Shown here one piece after another: positions 8,777 to 17,211 of a DNA stretch of 24,936 nt (positions are counted from its first letter, which is position 1; every line of letters starts with the position of its first letter). Made by a program: the position numbers and the translations under genes. The notes under the pieces were generated by a model. That model was not told the DNA's origin, searched no databases, and worked only from the letters and a program-made list of their open reading frames with translations. Source of the DNA: a virus; IMG/VR virus record IMGVR_UViG_3300040810_000185, positions 1 to 24,936 of that record; one strand, written 5' to 3'.

Positions 8777-9961
8777 TCAACTAAATGTCAGCGTAAAGTT
8801 TTGACCAGCACCACTAATAAACTGATAAGGGGGAGCACCGGTGAAAGTTGATCCTGAACCTCCGTAACCAGTGCCAACATCCCATTTAGCGGTAGCTGTA
8901 AAAGTCGCACCAGGCGTAATTGCTGTATAAACGCACTCTGCCCTATTAAAAAACCCAGTTGATGTTCCTGCCGCATTGCTCCAATCGCATCTTGTCCATC
9001 CAGCATTTCCTTGACTACCGTCCATGTATATAGTCATGCCGGTAAATCCGGGATTAGCGTATCTGCGGACATCAAGCACTCGACGCCCTGACGGGGTATC
9101 GGTAGAATTACTTAATGACCCTACATTGTTATTATAACTGCTAGTTGATGTTGAGATTGACCCGCCAATTGAAAGTCTGTATCCGTAAACAGGGTAGTAA
9201 CCAGTTGCAATCGTACCTGAGACACCATTCATTGTTTGAAGCACCTTCGACAAACCATAAAAGTCTGAAAGACTTATTGTGCCGCTTGCAGGTGTGCCTC
9301 CACCCGGTTGAGCAGTCACATCAAGGTATGCGGTTAGCGTTCCCATGGCAGAACCGTAACGAGCCTCTGAAAAATTAAACGTATTGTTAGATCCAGTAAT
9401 AAGCGTTGCCGGGCCACGCAACCAATACTTATTGGCCGAAGCAAAATTCTGAGTAGTCTCCGTGTATAGATACCATCCAGAAGTTGACCCTGCCGCATCT
9501 GTAGTCAAACCTGTACCGCTTGAACTAGTTCCTCCCTGATCTCTACACCATCGCCCATTAATACGAGTGGAAGAGATACCTAAAAAAGTACTGCTTGCGT
9601 AGGCCGCTTGGTTCCCCGAACCGCTTGTTTCCCAACCAATAGCGTTTGCAGAAAAAGTATATAAGTTTGTTCCAAATCCTATATTATCTAATTGCAAATC
9701 TGACTGAAAGTTAGTCATTCCTGTGTGTAAGAAAACTGGACGAACGGTATGCCCAGAATAAGCAGAAACATTTATGCTTCTATTCACCCAAATTGCATTG
9801 TTGCCGCTAACGGTAAAAAGGGCGGGAGATAGTCCAATCGGTTGACTCGCCCCAGCACCACCACCTACGCCATAATACTCACTGATAGAAATCGGGTTTG
9901 AGCCACCAAACTCTGTTTGAACGTCATTGAGTGATATCGCACCAGATGTTTGTAACGTCAT
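8777..9961 (-). CDS. Putative tail fibre/adhesin with two ISLxD motifs
   Basis: A 394-residue Ser/Gly/Thr/aromatic-rich protein. The N-terminus (SGAISLNDVQTEFGGSNPIS, residues 6-25, followed by EYYG) is a motif I know from marine phage fibre and adhesin proteins. A second short copy, SGTISLSDFYG, occurs at about residues 226-236 and splits the protein into two beta-sandwich-like halves. Each half is rich in Trp/Tyr and Asn and ends in a Gly-rich strand (FTLTFS at the end). No signal peptide or membrane segment. It starts on the stop codon of the 1475-aa fibre (TAATG), so it may be the tip or a partner of that fibre. Receptor binding is inferred. Confidence 0.8.
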   Translation of the reverse strand: MTLQTSGAISLNDVQTEFGGSNPISISEYYGVGGGAGASQPIGLSPALFTVSGNNAIWVNRSINVSAYSGHTVRPVFLHTGMTNFQSDLQLDNIGFGTNLYTFSANAIGWETSGSGNQAAYASSTFLGISSTRINGRWCRDQGGTSSSGTGLTTDAAGSTSGWYLYTETTQNFASANKYWLRGPATLITGSNNTFNFSEARYGSAMGTLTAYLDVTAQPGGGTPASGTISLSDFYGLSKVLQTMNGVSGTIATGYYPVYGYRLSIGGSISTSTSSYNNNVGSLSNSTDTPSGRRVLDVRRYANPGFTGMTIYMDGSQGNAGWTRCDWSNAAGTSTGFFNRAECVYTAITPGATFTATAKWDVGTGYGGSGSTFTGAPPYQFISGAGQNFTLTFS

Positions 9962-12900
9962 TAATCAAGCCCCTTCAGTGCAGTGATTTCGTTCTTGAGT
10001 GCGTCTATTTGTTCCTGTTGTTCTTTAACTGCTTCAATAAGTAATCCAACAAGGTTGCCGTATGCGACAGACTTTGTGCCAATCTCGTCATCAGTAGTTA
10101 CTACAACTTGAGGAATAACCTCTTCAACTTCTTGAGCGATAACACCAAGACCATCTTTACCGTCTTTGGTATATGTCACGCCACGCATAGATGTTATTTT
10201 GTCTAGAGCGTTATCAATGGTCTGAACATTTTCTTTTAAACGAATATCAGAAAATGCTGTGACATCACCTGTAGCTGTGACACTTCCTGTAACTTGAATA
10301 CCTGAGCCGGTTGTTGCTAACTTTGTAGAGCCGTCATATCGTAGCTGTACGGTGTTATTCCTTTGGCAATAAATTGCCCACTCATTATCAGTATCATTAT
10401 ATATGCCACAACTGGTAGGCCCATCAGACATAAGTACCCAATCATCTCTGATTGCGTATCCGGCCCAAGTAACTCCACGATCATCATCTACTTTAATTGT
10501 GCCGTAGCTTCCTGTGGCTTGGTCTACCCAAGTAAGCTCATTAGCCGCAGGTTGAAATGCACTAGAGTGATTGCCATCAAGCAAATCAGCATCTAAACCA
10601 CTGCCAGAACCATCAACAGTTTTAATTGCAGTTAATATCTCAGAAGCTGTTTGATCTGCTGTTGCACCATTTTCTACGTTGATAAAAGCACGAATAGATC
10701 CGGCATCACCGTGTCTAATATAATTATCATTTCCAGTTTCAACCATTACTTTGGTAACACCAGAACTAACGTCATTAGCAGTAGTGTTAAAATAGTTGGC
10801 AAAAATGTATCCAGACGAATGGCGTTGAACAATTGTACTATTACTTGCACTTACACTAGGTTGTGCGCCATCTAAAGTGTCAGCATCTAAGCCACTACCT
10901 GATCCGTCATTTCCCGCATGCCATATTTTGTAACGGGACGCACCTTTAGACCATCCACCCACAAACAGATCGTTAGTGTCGCCGTCAAGCCCAAAGTATG
11001 TTGCGTAATCACTGCCAACGTGGAAAGCCATAAAGGCATCGTTACCTGCACCGGAGCTATAACACTCTAAGCTAGCCTGATTTGCAGATGTTGTTGCCGC
11101 ATTAGTGTTAGAAAAGAAAGTAATTTTGTTAGCATAGTTAGTTACTGAATTACTAGTATCGTTTCTAATAAATGAGCTTGCATGAAGACTATCAACAGTA
11201 TCAGCATTACCAGTAATACTGATTCCCCAAGTACCAGAAGCACCGCCACCTGTTTTAGTTGGATATGTCCCATCAGTTACAGCCGACCTAAACTGTGCAG
11301 GAGTGGTTGGTCTAATGTAATTGTTATTTGCAGTGTCTATCTGCGTCATTATGAAGCCAACTGTTGAGTTCGTAGTGTCATATTCGCTTCGGAATAAGCG
11401 AGCATTTATGTCGCCTGACGAATCACGAGCAACAACTTTGCTTGCAGTTGACGCTGTAGTGGCATCTACATTCAGTGTTACTCCACCTGAAGTACCACCA
11501 CCTGTTAAGTATGATCCTGCAGTTACACCTGTAATATCACCTGTGTTTGTGGTATAGCCATTAGGGTTTGATGCAGGGTAATAATATGACCCTTGTTGAC
11601 CGTCGAGAAGGTCAGCATCTAGGCCACTGCCAGAGCCATCGTTAACATCTGTCCATATTTTCTGCCAAGCAGACCAAGAAGTATTATAACCACGAGTGTA
11701 TGGTTGTCCTGTTTGAAAATGAGTAGCTAATTGCCCAGTGACATTACCTTCGTTGCCGAAAGTCATTACAGCATAATAAGTGTTAGTTGGATTAGATCCG
11801 TTGGGGTTTACTCGTCTACTTGATGACTCTTGATAGTTTGGTGAGGTAGTCTCAGACAATTGCTCAACAAAAGAACTAGCGTGATAGCCATCAAGAGTGT
11901 CAGCATCTAAGCCGCTACCAGAGCCATCCACAGTCTTAATTGCAGTTAATATCTCAGATGCCGTTTGATCCGCTGTTGCTCCAGACTCAATGCCATTTAG
12001 CTTAGTATGATCCGCGTCAGTAAATACATTAGAATTTGTTGCTGACTCTACAAGAGTACGAATCTCCGCTGCAGTTTGGTCCGCTGTTGCGCCAGATTCA
12101 ATACCATTTAGCTTAGTATGATCAGCGTCAGTGAATACATTAGAGTCGCTCGCTGACTCTACAAGAGTACGAATCTCCGCCGCCGTCTGGTCCGCTGTTG
12201 CTCCAGACTCAATGCCGTCTAGCTTTGCACCATCAGTGGCAAGGTCTCTGCCATCAACAGTACCGCCAACAGTGACATTACCGGAACCGTCAACAGTTAG
12301 TAAGCTAGTATCACTGGCATTAATAACGTAAAAAGTACCATCGTTTTCAAACCCAACAGAACCTTTTAAAACATTATCAACCCAGAACCCAGCATAGGTG
12401 CCCAAACCATTAGCAGGGGTACCTGTGGTACTCGTATTGAGCTTCAATGACCCAAAGTTGCCCGTGGTATTTGACCCAGCGTCTCGCGTGACAAGAAGCG
12501 GGGGATATGTAGCAGAACTTACACTGACCTGCCCGCTAAAATTAGCGCCAGACAACGTGGCAAACGCAGAGGCATGATTGCCGTCTAACAAATCAGCGTC
12601 TAATCCAGAGCCAGAGCCATCATTGGAAGTATCGAAGAAACCAAGACCACGAATATCTGCGGCGGTTTGATCGGCGGTGGCGTTTGCTTCAATAGCGTTT
12701 AATTTTGAAAGTAATGCATCAGTAAGCGCATTTGTATCACTATTGTTTTCGTAAGCCGTTTTTATTTCTGCATCAGTTTGATCGGCGGTGGCGTTTGCTT
12801 CAATACCGTCTAACTTGGTTCCATCTGTTGCAACGTCTCGGCCATCGACAGTACCGCCAACTGTAATGTTACCTGTGACAGATAGTGCTCCAGAAAGCGA

Positions 12901-14388
12901 GCCGTCTACACCTTCTATATCATCAACAACTAACGTGCCTGCACTGTAAGAGGCATCACCGGTGTCAATTGTTCCGGTAGGCTCTGGATCATACTCATCT
13001 ACCAACTTGAACTTCGAGTCAGTGACATCGAAGAACATGCCGACGTGTGTGTATCCAACACCACTTCCGCCAGTATTGCGGTTAGACCAAATGCCTGTGT
13101 CTACATCTACCGGTGTAGCTGTGCCAGACCACACATCATTCAATGTGTGCCCTGTCGTTGAACCAAAGTCAATTTTAATACCATTATCTAAGGTTTGATC
13201 ACCACCAGTGATGGCAACACCTGTAGCTTCTGTCGTACTAAAGTTATCTTTGGACCAAGAGAATGTATCTGGTGTACCTGTCGCATCAATCTTAACGTAA
13301 TACGTTGTTGATGCTGTGCCACTAAAGTGTCCTGCAAAATAAGCGTCATCAAGCCCACTACCAGTAAATGTAGTGTTTGCTTCGCCTATAGAGTCCCCGG
13401 AATTTAAGTATAAGAAAGGTGCGCCTGTCTCAACATTTGTAGAGGAGGCAACAGTTTGAGAGCCTACAACGGTTAAGTCACCGTCAATGATCAAGTCACC
13501 ACCGATGTGAGTATCGGTACGCACACGGAAAGAGTTGACTGAGTGATTCTGCTGATTGACGAGCAGGATACCTGTTGAGGCATCTGAATTGACAACCCAT
13601 CCCAGACACATAGGGAAGTTAGGGTAGGTAGGAGATGCGTTTTGTACCGCGCCGTCTGTTAAACCAACAAAAAAGTTTGTCCCGGCAGATAATCCAGAGG
13701 TATCAACATCCTCAACTAAACCGGCTGTACATACATAACCGTATGTGTTGTTTTCAATGCTATGAGCGGCTATACCTTGAGCATTGTATTTGTTTACGTC
13801 TGTTGCATTAGCTCTAGCGGCTGTAGGGTAGCCATTGAAGTTTCCGCTAAAGTAAAGCGGCTCGCCTTTAGCAATCGTAACGCCACTGTTATTGTAGACT
13901 TTTTGATGCTCTTCTAAGCCAACTTCGTGAACAAGCCCACTCTCGTCACCATAGTAATTCAAGGTATTATGAATACTATCGTACCAAATCAATCCTTCAG
14001 AATATGACGGATGTTCTGACTGAGCTTCTAGTTGAATTTGATCAATGGTTACAGTGTCTGAACCGCTGTCTTTATACACGGCCTTACCGGCGGGCTGTGT
14101 AACAAAGACAAACTTAGTACCAGCTTGTAAATCGACTTTTGCGTCAGAATTGCTAGACGTGAAAACGGTGTCCCTTGACAGAGTATCAGGCGAGCCCTGC
14201 GTTACTGTGCCAAGACCAACCTCATACTCGCCATTATCATTATCGATAATGGCGTAAAAGGTGGTGTTTCCTGCGCCGACACCCGCAACAAAGGTTTGAA
14301 AGCCGACTTCGGCCCCAGCAAGTGAAACGGTCCCAGTGCCTGTTGTACCGGTCGATTCTTTTACGCGATCCGCGATTGCAAAAGCCAT
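9961..14388 (-). CDS. Large tail fibre with C-terminal S74 self-cleaving chaperone domain
   Basis: A 1475-residue protein. The N-terminal ~100 residues (FAIADRVKESTGTTGTG, then ...DTVFTSS) form a virion-attachment domain of a marine-fibre type. The shaft contains six ATADQT units and five DGSGSGLDAD[LT]LDG units, with a 37-residue block repeated in tandem. The C-terminus is a peptidase S74 intramolecular chaperone: SDIRLKENV with Ser1380 and Lys1385 in the expected Ser-Lys spacing, GLGVIAQEVEEVIP, VAYGNLVGLLIEAVKEQ and a final coiled coil. Known S74 domains drive trimerisation and then cut themselves off just before the serine; here that would release about 96 residues. It is probably a main receptor-binding or glycan-degrading fibre, although no enzyme motif is visible in the shaft. 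Confidence 0.92.
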   Translation of the reverse strand: MAFAIADRVKESTGTTGTGTVSLAGAEVGFQTFVAGVGAGNTTFYAIIDNDNGEYEVGLGTVTQGSPDTLSRDTVFTSSNSDAKVDLQAGTKFVFVTQPAGKAVYKDSGSDTVTIDQIQLEAQSEHPSYSEGLIWYDSIHNTLNYYGDESGLVHEVGLEEHQKVYNNSGVTIAKGEPLYFSGNFNGYPTAARANATDVNKYNAQGIAAHSIENNTYGYVCTAGLVEDVDTSGLSAGTNFFVGLTDGAVQNASPTYPNFPMCLGWVVNSDASTGILLVNQQNHSVNSFRVRTDTHIGGDLIIDGDLTVVGSQTVASSTNVETGAPFLYLNSGDSIGEANTTFTGSGLDDAYFAGHFSGTASTTYYVKIDATGTPDTFSWSKDNFSTTEATGVAITGGDQTLDNGIKIDFGSTTGHTLNDVWSGTATPVDVDTGIWSNRNTGGSGVGYTHVGMFFDVTDSKFKLVDEYDPEPTGTIDTGDASYSAGTLVVDDIEGVDGSLSGALSVTGNITVGGTVDGRDVATDGTKLDGIEANATADQTDAEIKTAYENNSDTNALTDALLSKLNAIEANATADQTAADIRGLGFFDTSNDGSGSGLDADLLDGNHASAFATLSGANFSGQVSVSSATYPPLLVTRDAGSNTTGNFGSLKLNTSTTGTPANGLGTYAGFWVDNVLKGSVGFENDGTFYVINASDTSLLTVDGSGNVTVGGTVDGRDLATDGAKLDGIESGATADQTAAEIRTLVESASDSNVFTDADHTKLNGIESGATADQTAAEIRTLVESATNSNVFTDADHTKLNGIESGATADQTASEILTAIKTVDGSGSGLDADTLDGYHASSFVEQLSETTSPNYQESSSRRVNPNGSNPTNTYYAVMTFGNEGNVTGQLATHFQTGQPYTRGYNTSWSAWQKIWTDVNDGSGSGLDADLLDGQQGSYYYPASNPNGYTTNTGDITGVTAGSYLTGGGTSGGVTLNVDATTASTASKVVARDSSGDINARLFRSEYDTTNSTVGFIMTQIDTANNNYIRPTTPAQFRSAVTDGTYPTKTGGGASGTWGISITGNADTVDSLHASSFIRNDTSNSVTNYANKITFFSNTNAATTSANQASLECYSSGAGNDAFMAFHVGSDYATYFGLDGDTNDLFVGGWSKGASRYKIWHAGNDGSGSGLDADTLDGAQPSVSASNSTIVQRHSSGYIFANYFNTTANDVSSGVTKVMVETGNDNYIRHGDAGSIRAFINVENGATADQTASEILTAIKTVDGSGSGLDADLLDGNHSSAFQPAANELTWVDQATGSYGTIKVDDDRGVTWAGYAIRDDWVLMSDGPTSCGIYNDTDNEWAIYCQRNNTVQLRYDGSTKLATTGSGIQVTGSVTATGDVTAFSDIRLKENVQTIDNALDKITSMRGVTYTKDGKDGLGVIAQEVEEVIPQVVVTTDDEIGTKSVAYGNLVGLLIEAVKEQQEQIDALKNEITALKGLD
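11951..12222 (-). repeat. 111-bp tandem coding repeat in the S74 fibre
   Basis: The word gactctacaagagtacgaat (plus strand) occurs at 12044 and 12155, a period of 111 bp (37 codons). Flanking copies of the ATADQT-encoding segment at about 11960-11990 and 12185-12215 mark the edges. The unit encodes a helix-rich block containing FTDADHTKLNGIESGATADQ. The two full units are nearly identical in DNA, which suggests recent expansion. Confidence 0.82.
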
Positions 14389-14860: not shown

Positions 14861-15157
14861 TTAAAGTCTCCTTATGGCGTCCGCTAATTTTGGATGACCC
14901 GCATCCATTAAAGCATTATAAACAGTTGTTCGATCTGCCCGAACAGCTTCTTTAAAATACTGCTCTACAAGTTTAGCAATATTTTCTTTGTAAGCATACG
15001 CCTGTTGTTTAAGAACAGGGTCGGTGGTGTCTGAAACACTAATAATCTTATCAGCACACCGTTGTGCAACTTCCTCGGGGGTAAAACCACGGCCCTCGGT
15101 TGTATGCACCTTTACTAAATTTTCGTATCTTGGGACATCCAAGCTAAACGTAAACAT
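14861..15157 (-). CDS. Conserved helical phage protein, 98 aa
   Basis: A 98-residue protein, mostly alpha-helical, with PEEVAQRCADKIISVSDTTD at about residues 27-46 and a C-terminal DRTTVYNALMDAGHPKLADA (about residues 75-94) followed by IRRL. I recognise the SDRTTLYNALxDAGHPxLAExIRRL ending from small proteins beside adaptor genes in marine phages. Its ATG overlaps the stop of the adaptor gene by one base. Function unknown; its consistent place next to the adaptor suggests a connector or assembly factor. Confidence 0.78.
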   Translation of the reverse strand: MFTFSLDVPRYENLVKVHTTEGRGFTPEEVAQRCADKIISVSDTTDPVLKQQAYAYKENIAKLVEQYFKEAVRADRTTVYNALMDAGHPKLADAIRRL

Positions 15158-15804
15158 TATGTTCTTGCCCTCATCACTGAACCTGAACGGTATTTATCGG
15201 TATTTTCAATTCCTTCGGCAAAGTTTTTCAGTCTAGATAACGCCTGGACGTACTGTTGTTGATATGCTTGTACAACATCAGGCTCACCTTTCATAAAAAT
15301 GTACGCTTCAATCAAAGATCCGTACAACAAGGCTTGTGGTACATTTGTGCTCAACCATGTGGTCCCGTCATCTCCGGCTGCTGTAAGGCTAACAGGGCGG
15401 TAATAATAGTGAAGCTCCACGTTGTATGAAGCATCAGGAGTTGGACCAACAATCAAGTTATCTACGTCATAATATCCGTAATATACAGGCGGCGCTAGAT
15501 TCGCTGGGTCAGGGGCGTACTCTTCAACAAAATTAGCGTCTTTTTGAAGCAAGTATTTAAGGCCTTCTTCCGTAATATACGAAAGAGAAAACGCAGACAA
15601 AAAGTCATTGGGAAGAGCCAAATACTTATTACCTTGAGTCAACGCTCCACCTACGTTCTTTTTAAACAGCTCAAGATCAACAGAATGAAAAATGTTGTCT
15701 TCCGCATTACGAATAAAGTTCGGAAGATTATTGACGAACGTAGTTTCTTGGTTTTCGCAGTAATCTTGAATCGCGGTTTTTAACTGAGAAAATGTATAAC
15801 TCAT
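15157..15804 (-). CDS. Head-tail adaptor protein (SU10 adaptor-like)
   Basis: A 215-residue protein with the arrangement expected of a phage adaptor. A helical N-terminus (FSQLKTAIQDYCENQETTF, NLPNFIRNAEDNIF) is followed by a beta core (YLALPNDFLSAFSLSY, then a VGPTPDASYNVELHYYYRPV strand pair) and a helical C-terminus (ALLYGSLIEAYIFMKGEPDV, then YVQALSRLKNF). This is the pattern of the short-tailed SU10-type adaptor that seats on the portal, as I remember it. Its ATG overlaps the TGA of the upstream gene (ATGA). With the neighbouring gp4/gp11-like protein it should form the connector between head and nozzle. Confidence 0.82.
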   Translation of the reverse strand: MSYTFSQLKTAIQDYCENQETTFVNNLPNFIRNAEDNIFHSVDLELFKKNVGGALTQGNKYLALPNDFLSAFSLSYITEEGLKYLLQKDANFVEEYAPDPANLAPPVYYGYYDVDNLIVGPTPDASYNVELHYYYRPVSLTAAGDDGTTWLSTNVPQALLYGSLIEAYIFMKGEPDVVQAYQQQYVQALSRLKNFAEGIENTDKYRSGSVMRART

Positions 15805-16529
15805 AACGTATTCACCTTATAACCCATACCGCTGTGGACACTACAATATGTATACAATGTTGGCGCACCGATAGCGACGGTTATTTGAGTATATGCTCCA
15901 GCAGACCCCGGTGTGCCTACATAAGTAACACCTGTTGTATATTCTACCCCACCACCGTGTGTGCCGTCAGGAGTTGTTGAAAAACGAAGAGGATGCCCAG
16001 AATTTGAAACATTCGACTGATCGTAACGATAGGTAGAACCTTCGTAAACATCTCTTCCTGCGATACCGGGTTGCGCTCCGTCCTGATAAAAGACGTTTCC
16101 TGAACCCGGATCGGAAACGGTCATTGTGTATGTGGCCGCAATAGTTACAACATTAACCGTAACTTCTCCAACAGACGCTGTAGCATCTACCCCAGTAGCA
16201 GTTGTCGATATGTTGGTTATTTCCGTAACTTCTCCAACAGCCGTAACTGTCCCAACCCTGCCAAAGATTTGTGGTCTAGGTATCGGAAGACCAACTGTAT
16301 CAGTATATACAAAAACTTTTAACCCTTCAGTTACATCAGGTCTAGGATCACGCAAAGCTTGAGGATCTGCACCAACATTTGGTGCGCTTAATTGAGGGTG
16401 TTTTTCTTCATACTCGTCTGGTCCAACTAGCAATCCGTTCCATTCTTTCCGCATCTCGCGCAAACGATACCGGAAACCAGATCGATCCGATATACCGTAC
16501 GCATATTTCGCAGAAGCATAACGAGCCAC
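15801..16529 (-). CDS. Virion-associated protein with C-terminal cupredoxin-like domain
   Basis: A 242-residue protein starting at GTG (16529); the first in-frame ATG lies 26 codons on, inside the conserved N-terminus. Residues 4-62 (AYGISDRSGFRYRLREMRKE, then WNGLLVGPDEYEEKHPQL) are a conserved domain I know from marine phage connector regions. Residues ~91-126 contain VGTVTAVGEVTEITN and VGEVTVN repeats. Residues ~133-240 look like a cupredoxin: HPLRF with H179, then YCSVHSGMG with C229, H232 and M235. The C-x2-H-x2-M spacing equals that of amicyanin. Copper binding is not proven; marine phage proteins often carry similar domains without known activity. The stop overlaps the adaptor start by four bases. 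Confidence 0.8.
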   Translation of the reverse strand: MARYASAKYAYGISDRSGFRYRLREMRKEWNGLLVGPDEYEEKHPQLSAPNVGADPQALRDPRPDVTEGLKVFVYTDTVGLPIPRPQIFGRVGTVTAVGEVTEITNISTTATGVDATASVGEVTVNVVTIAATYTMTVSDPGSGNVFYQDGAQPGIAGRDVYEGSTYRYDQSNVSNSGHPLRFSTTPDGTHGGGVEYTTGVTYVGTPGSAGAYTQITVAIGAPTLYTYCSVHSGMGYKVNTL

Positions 16530-16533
16530 TTTT

Positions 16534-17211
16534 TTAGAACCTAATGTACTGAATATCTGGTTGTAGCTTTAAGGCTACACGATCTTCGTCTTCGTCAGAA
16601 GCACGCTGGAACTCTTCCTCATAGACCGCCTTTAATAACTGCACACGCTCTGGGGCTTTTTTCATAGACAGGTAATAAGATAACCCGGCGATCATGCAAG
16701 GCAGGAACCGGTAAGGAACGTCAGTCGTATTTTGCAACGAGTCAGCATCTTCAATGCGGGTGATGTAGTAGTACACCAGCTCATCTGTACTGTTCTCTGG
16801 AACCGGCCATACGGACAGTTCTGGGCTGGTCTGACGGTTAAAGTAGAATTGGGAGGGTCTCCCGGTAGTCGTCTTGTTGGGAACATTCAAATATTCCCCG
16901 CGACTTATGCGGTCTACTTCGTAATCAGCTCCATTTCGGCGTAATGCAACTTCCAGGATATCGTTCATCGGGGACGTTAGTCCATTTCCCGAGTTGTATG
17001 TCGCCGTCCCAGAAACCAGAGTAAGCGTCGCTTGCTTCACTGTCCAGAGATTTACGCCACGATTTGCCCATTCGGAGAACATGATATTCAATGAACGACG
17101 AGCAGTCTTCGCGTCATACCCTGTACGAACTTCTAAGCCGCATCTTTCGTATGCTTCTTCAATAATTTCTGCGACATCGAGGTCGAAATCTCTTGAACCT
17201 GAAGTTGCCAT
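16534..17211 (-). CDS. Tail tubular / head-tail connector protein (T7 gp11/P22 gp4-like)
   Basis: A 225-residue protein. N-terminal helices (DVAEIIEEAYERCGLEVRTG, then ARRSLNIMFSEWANRGVNLW, residues ~13-56) are followed by a beta section with ILEVALRRNGADYEVDRISR (about residues 85-104), GRPSQFYFNRQ and LSVWPVPE, and a C-terminal helical part (RFLPCMIAGLSYYLSMKKAP). This arrangement, including SRxEYLxxPxKxxxGRPxxFYFxRQ, matches the gatekeeper and tail-tube proteins of short-tailed phages. It would bind below the portal and adaptor and above the nozzle. It starts four bases after the small Cys-rich gene. Family assignment is from motif memory and fairly firm. Confidence 0.82.
   Translation of the reverse strand: MATSGSRDFDLDVAEIIEEAYERCGLEVRTGYDAKTARRSLNIMFSEWANRGVNLWTVKQATLTLVSGTATYNSGNGLTSPMNDILEVALRRNGADYEVDRISRGEYLNVPNKTTTGRPSQFYFNRQTSPELSVWPVPENSTDELVYYYITRIEDADSLQNTTDVPYRFLPCMIAGLSYYLSMKKAPERVQLLKAVYEEEFQRASDEDEDRVALKLQPDIQYIRF

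Follow-up and report, generated by a model that had tools for sequence, protein, structure and literature searches.

Cupredoxins are Greek-key beta sandwiches with about eight strands, and their type-1 copper sites use His, Cys, His and an axial Met, Leu or Gln, in that canonical order. Amicyanin and the other short-loop type-1 cupredoxins (compare CTPHPFM in 2vmj) carry a His-...-Cys-x2-His-x2-Met ligand set, with a Tyr-x-Tyr-Cys strand running into the Cys. In the second sphere of plastocyanin, azurin and amicyanin, Asn (or Ser) directly follows the first His ligand, and His-Pro is the dipeptide at the type-1 His of multicopper oxidases. Rusticyanin, the blue-copper domain of nitrite reductase and the small laccases are enzymes or periplasmic electron carriers. 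Cyanophages reportedly carry plastocyanin (petE) as an auxiliary metabolic gene, so that a blue-copper ligand set already occurs in marine phages, there as a host-derived, soluble photosynthesis protein. Metal ligands repeated in marine phage virion fibres have also been described: in the Ferrojan horse, HxH motifs in T4 gp37 and in fibres of marine phages bind iron, which His residues coordinate octahedrally in a trimeric fibre (PMC11705849).

Here we describe a familiar fold and metal site in what would be a new context. The window, a 24.9-kb virus record, encodes a putative virion protein with a module predicted to adopt the cupredoxin fold and to carry a Cys/His2/Met site supplied by one chain. 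The module shares with amicyanin the predicted fold, the order and spacing of the ligands and the Tyr-x-Tyr-Cys strand, but it is part of a virion protein, has Pro rather than Asn after the first His, and shows no significant sequence relation. Rusticyanin, nitrite reductase and the small laccases are its closest structural matches, and its His-Pro resembles the multicopper-oxidase type-1 His, although no type-2 or type-3 copper residues were seen. If structural proteins of abundant marine phages keep the full type-1 ligand set under selection, the cupredoxin fold has a use not described before, and copper would join iron among the metals carried by virions. We found no published description of cupredoxins, blue copper or copper binding in phage structural proteins in the open-licence literature, an absence that is weak evidence because only open-licence papers were covered. 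The features of the locus are as follows.

16534..17211, minus strand: upstream SU10-adaptor-like gene (PF24175 SU10_adaptor, 3e-12)
15801..16529, minus strand: gene of the 242-aa putative virion protein (GTG start; phrog and IMG/VR homologues)
16332..16529, minus strand: residues 1-66, an N-terminal module that is a degenerate zinc ribbon of phage type (SDRSGF..EWNG..VGPDEYE.KHPQL)
16143..16331, minus strand: linker or stalk, residues 67-129, low-complexity repeats of the TGVxATxSVGxVTV type, variable in length among homologues
15804..16142, minus strand: predicted cupredoxin-fold domain, residues 130-242 (AF2 and Foldseek)
15993..15995, minus strand: H179, predicted equatorial ligand 1 (SGHPLRF), invariant in the A2 alignment
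15843..15845, minus strand: C229, predicted thiolate ligand, invariant in A2, sole Cys of the protein
15834..15836, minus strand: H232, predicted equatorial ligand 2, invariant in A2
15825..15827, minus strand: M235, predicted axial ligand, about 98% Met, Leu in some relatives
15157..15804, minus strand: downstream SU10-adaptor-like gene (PF24175, 1.9e-28; phrog_2941, virion structural protein)

The initial annotation had described the protein as encoded beside an adaptor, and PF24175 matches indeed flank the gene on both sides; in the sequence TATGA, the stop codon of the gene overlaps the ATG at which the following adaptor-like gene starts. Residues 1-69 are matched by phrog_28581 and residues 92-240 by tail-fibre phrogs; the cupredoxin-like domain itself is matched by PHROGs 27200, 693, 30742 and 708 (tail fibre, baseplate or unknown), none of which is annotated as copper or cupredoxin. 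A homologue in phage S-TIM5 is annotated as a virion structural protein. From this synteny between adaptors and these homologues, we infer that the 242-aa protein is a virion component. An auxiliary plastocyanin gene was ruled out by the gene order, the fusion to virion modules and the lack of a Pfam match.

The protein has three parts. Its first 66 residues form a module common to phages of Roseobacter, Pelagibacter, Planktothrix and others, where it adjoins tail adaptor genes, and this module is probably a virion anchor. Homologues beside tail adaptor genes retain an intact C-x2-C (P0007, CDVCGF...VCLKDWEPRHPQD, and P0009), and relatives from Manatee Spring are zinc-ribbon-like with their Cys in place (CDVCGF...WD..VC..DWEPRHPQD). 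In the window protein the Cys of these phage relatives (the C-x2-C and one further) are replaced by Ser or Gly. The module is also joined to other C-termini: it is followed by repeats alone in CRP-902 gp53 and by a different sequence in phage 023Pt_psg01, and some module proteins (among L054-L073) stop shortly past residue 100. The stalk is predicted to be disordered, with pLDDT below 50 at residues 60-126 of a full-length model. That model was built on just 17 aligned sequences, and its confidence is low everywhere but in residues 130-242.

Residues 130-242 are predicted to form an independent domain with a cupredoxin-type fold, lying within the 15801-16200 range at which a C-terminal domain had been proposed. 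The AF2 model, built on an alignment of 57 relatives, is all beta, with pLDDT 97.6 and pTM 0.89. Its top Foldseek matches in the PDB were nitrite reductase (2dv6), rusticyanin, small laccases and multicopper oxidases, with probabilities up to 1.00 and TM scores of 0.55-0.60 by query length. The E-values of about 1e-3 are modest, which is usual when the query is a beta sandwich of this small size. Coagulation factor VIII (itself related to cupredoxins), antibody chains and SO1698 also appear near the head of the list, and the remainder are type-1 copper proteins. The full-length model likewise matches copper nitrite reductase and laccases. Structure prediction, the check suggested at the outset, thus returned a cupredoxin whose nearest solved folds are type-1 copper proteins, and not the different fold that would have counted against the proposal.

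Sequence comparisons with known cupredoxins support this fold and are below significance by themselves. A profile of 57 diverse copies (A2) aligns with plastocyanins from end to end of the domain and brings Cys, His and Met into register (E 0.24-0.34), and a profile of a second subtype (A3) has copper nitrite reductase as its best match (E 1.5, CTVHSAM on CTPHPFM). Profile-profile comparison with cellular plastocyanin- and pseudoazurin-like sequences gave a probability of just 65-77%. A Pfam search of the window protein matched no copper family. Five of 57 relatives touched Copper-bind (PF00127; best E 0.0043) and the window protein did not, scores remaining below the gathering cut-off (15.3 bits for relative L178 against 21.2). 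Immunoglobulin heavy chains were the top PDB matches of a first, small profile (E 0.005); we rejected this as a chance Tyr-Tyr-Cys match within a beta-sandwich strand, because the broader profile aligns over the full domain with plastocyanins.

All four type-1 ligands named in the initial annotation are present: the C-terminus reads YCSVHSGMG, giving C229, H232 and M235, with H179 upstream. The claimed amicyanin-like C-x2-H-x2-M spacing (here CSVHSGM) is maintained through the family alignments. In the model, C229 closes a strand, H232 and M235 lie in the next loop and H179 sits just before strand 181-184, a placement that suits a type-1 site. Six-frame translation of the window contains the C-x2-H-x2-M motif a single time, and this motif with a suitably spaced upstream His arose in 13 of 200,000 protein shuffles. 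Conservation is a stronger test of the motif than shuffling. Of the roughly 112 columns in A2, H179, C229 and H232 alone never vary; the four ligands stand at 98-100% among 49 representatives of less than 70% identity. Of 280 distinct domain copies, 267 have the complete HCHM set, a count to be read with a bias to conserved copies, as some relative-search patterns included ligand residues (one pattern set included none). Exactly one Cys is found in 273 of the 280, and a disulphide role for C229 is therefore ruled out. Pro directly follows the first His in 266 of the 280, in place of the Asn or Ser of plastocyanin, azurin and amicyanin. A multicopper centre of the multicopper-oxidase kind was ruled out too, as no type-2/3 His pattern was seen.

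Correlated natural losses make the strongest case for the putative metal site. Although 53 residues separate H179 from H232, six sequences (about four events on the tree) have lost both, H232 is never lost alone, H179 is lost alone once and 272 copies keep both (Fisher P = 1e-11, uncorrected for relatedness). In five of the six co-loss sequences C229 has also become Ser (YSQM, NSQM, DSNM and, twice, NSDL), with YCFM retaining the Cys; the sole loss of H179 without H232 is accompanied by Met to Leu (DCHL). The YSQM and NSQM copies are a few bases from close HCHM relatives, Cys to Ser being TGT to TCT. When the ligand columns were left out of tree building, the tree gave about five changes at H179 and about four at H232. 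After correction for the tree the events are few, with two independent pairs on well-supported branches and a sign test that is not significant. Met to Leu is the commonest single change and arose in two lineages (L085/L087/L204 and L127), the first keeping the Cys and both His beside the axial Leu; it is also the usual axial change in natural type-1 copper sites. By these patterns of retention and loss, the complete ligand set appears to be under strong joint selection. The question is directly testable, because natural site-less copies (L007, L010, L349, L413 and L423) are ready controls.

A link to marine phage fibres, mentioned in the initial annotation, is borne out: among cyanophages the domain occurs in structural proteins, tail fibres and connectors between baseplate and fibre, in 53 records with a query from one subtype and 323 with the other. 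It is inserted within an S-TIM5 virion structural protein and stands at the C-terminus of a baseplate wedge-fibre connector of S-SSM4; phage 023Pt_psg01 has it fused ahead of an SU10-like adaptor. In BFVD, 58 viral proteins match with E-values up to 1e-3. To judge from these contexts, the domain is a mobile module of virion proteins. A likely identity can thereby be given to part of several large PHROGs without assigned function, and to a domain that has had no name in over 300 cyanophage records. SAR86 bacteria have the domain on small predicted lipoproteins (LAAC-type lipobox) with ordinary metabolic or chromosomal neighbours (L174, L176, L180, L181 and L187); these are possibly cellular cupredoxins outside Pfam coverage. 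That the four ligands hardly ever change across hundreds of marine viruses suggests that many ocean phage particles may carry a bound copper ion on the outside.

We consider it likely that residues 130-242 are a cupredoxin domain and that His179, Cys229, His232 and axial Met235 make up a genuine type-1-like site for a single metal ion. That the ion is copper is somewhat less secure, and is the choice we favour; that its main role is metal-stabilised adhesion or host contact is a tentative proposal, held at slightly under even confidence. In this proposal the degenerate zinc ribbon would dock beside the head-tail adaptors, and the disordered repeat stalk would keep the cupredoxin domain away from the neck. 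The site would be pre-formed in the apo protein, so that synthesis in the cytoplasm would be possible, with copper taken up after lysis. The metal would then hold the two sheets in place, together with the exposed loop, in a small domain that contacts the host, the least certain step, and it is for this reason that adhesion would be the main role and electron transfer less so. The broader idea that marine phages, many cyanophages included, have working blue-copper centres in proteins of the neck, baseplate and fibres, and that these serve infection through redox sensing or copper-dependent docking, strikes us as unlikely; if it were true, virions would hold some of the protein-bound copper of seawater.

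Zinc is the main rival to copper as the ion. A site of the same geometry might hold Zn (or Cu(I)) in a purely structural role, loaded in the reducing cytoplasm where the protein is made; cupredoxin sites bind Zn readily, and the conservation pattern cannot separate the two metals. However, an axial Met with Met to Leu as the commonest single change is typical of type-1 copper and odd for Zn, whose sites usually have a fourth strong ligand, and we judge this reading unlikely. The domain might instead be redox active, the virion-borne copper accepting or donating an electron at the cell surface and, for example, triggering or sensing contact with an energised envelope. It has the four ligands of electron-transfer cupredoxins, the amicyanin spacing and the predicted fold, and SAR86 bears the same domain on its lipoproteins. 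Yet the window holds no redox partner, the virion proteins that carry the domain are many and unrelated, and a few phages retain entire copies in which the site is missing. Given this carriage and this persistence, a replaceable stabilising metal fits better than an essential electron carrier, and we hold the redox role to be decidedly unlikely.

The iron precedent of HxH sites in phage fibres (PMC11705849) invites a copper variant of the Ferrojan horse, in which the bound copper would dock the particle on copper- or metallophore-uptake receptors. The presence of the module in fibres and baseplate-fibre connectors would suit it, but a type-1 site largely buries its ion, and the copy in the window belongs to a group of neck genes and does not form the tip of a fibre, which leaves this variant highly unlikely. 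More improbable still is a domain that binds no metal, a cupredoxin-like adhesion domain of Ig type that retains His, Cys and Met for packing. The fold is presumably kept where H/C/H has become Y/S/Q, N/S/Q, D/S/N or N/S/D, as such a domain would allow; but residues of three rare types are the only invariant columns and are lost as a set, and the lone invariant Cys has no partner.

Several further proteins are recorded here as side observations. An 803-aa ORF in frame 1 of L188 combines a subtilisin-like SSACPNACG motif with a cupredoxin-like insertion bearing HP...C-x2-H-x2-M, and the BFVD matches include a cyanophage S8/S53 peptidase. Within the window, a 520-aa virion protein (1059-2621) matches the endosialidase beta-barrel domain PF12195 below the cut-off. 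It also matches the C-terminal part of phrog_28581, the N-terminal part of which is the N-terminal module of the 242-aa protein, and the two proteins thus seem to share swappable parts. A 1475-aa tail fibre (9961-14388) ends in a Peptidase_S74 intramolecular chaperone, and the gene adjoining it (8777-9961) encodes a 394-aa protein with a MAM adhesion domain (E 2.5e-6, barely above the Pfam cut-off).
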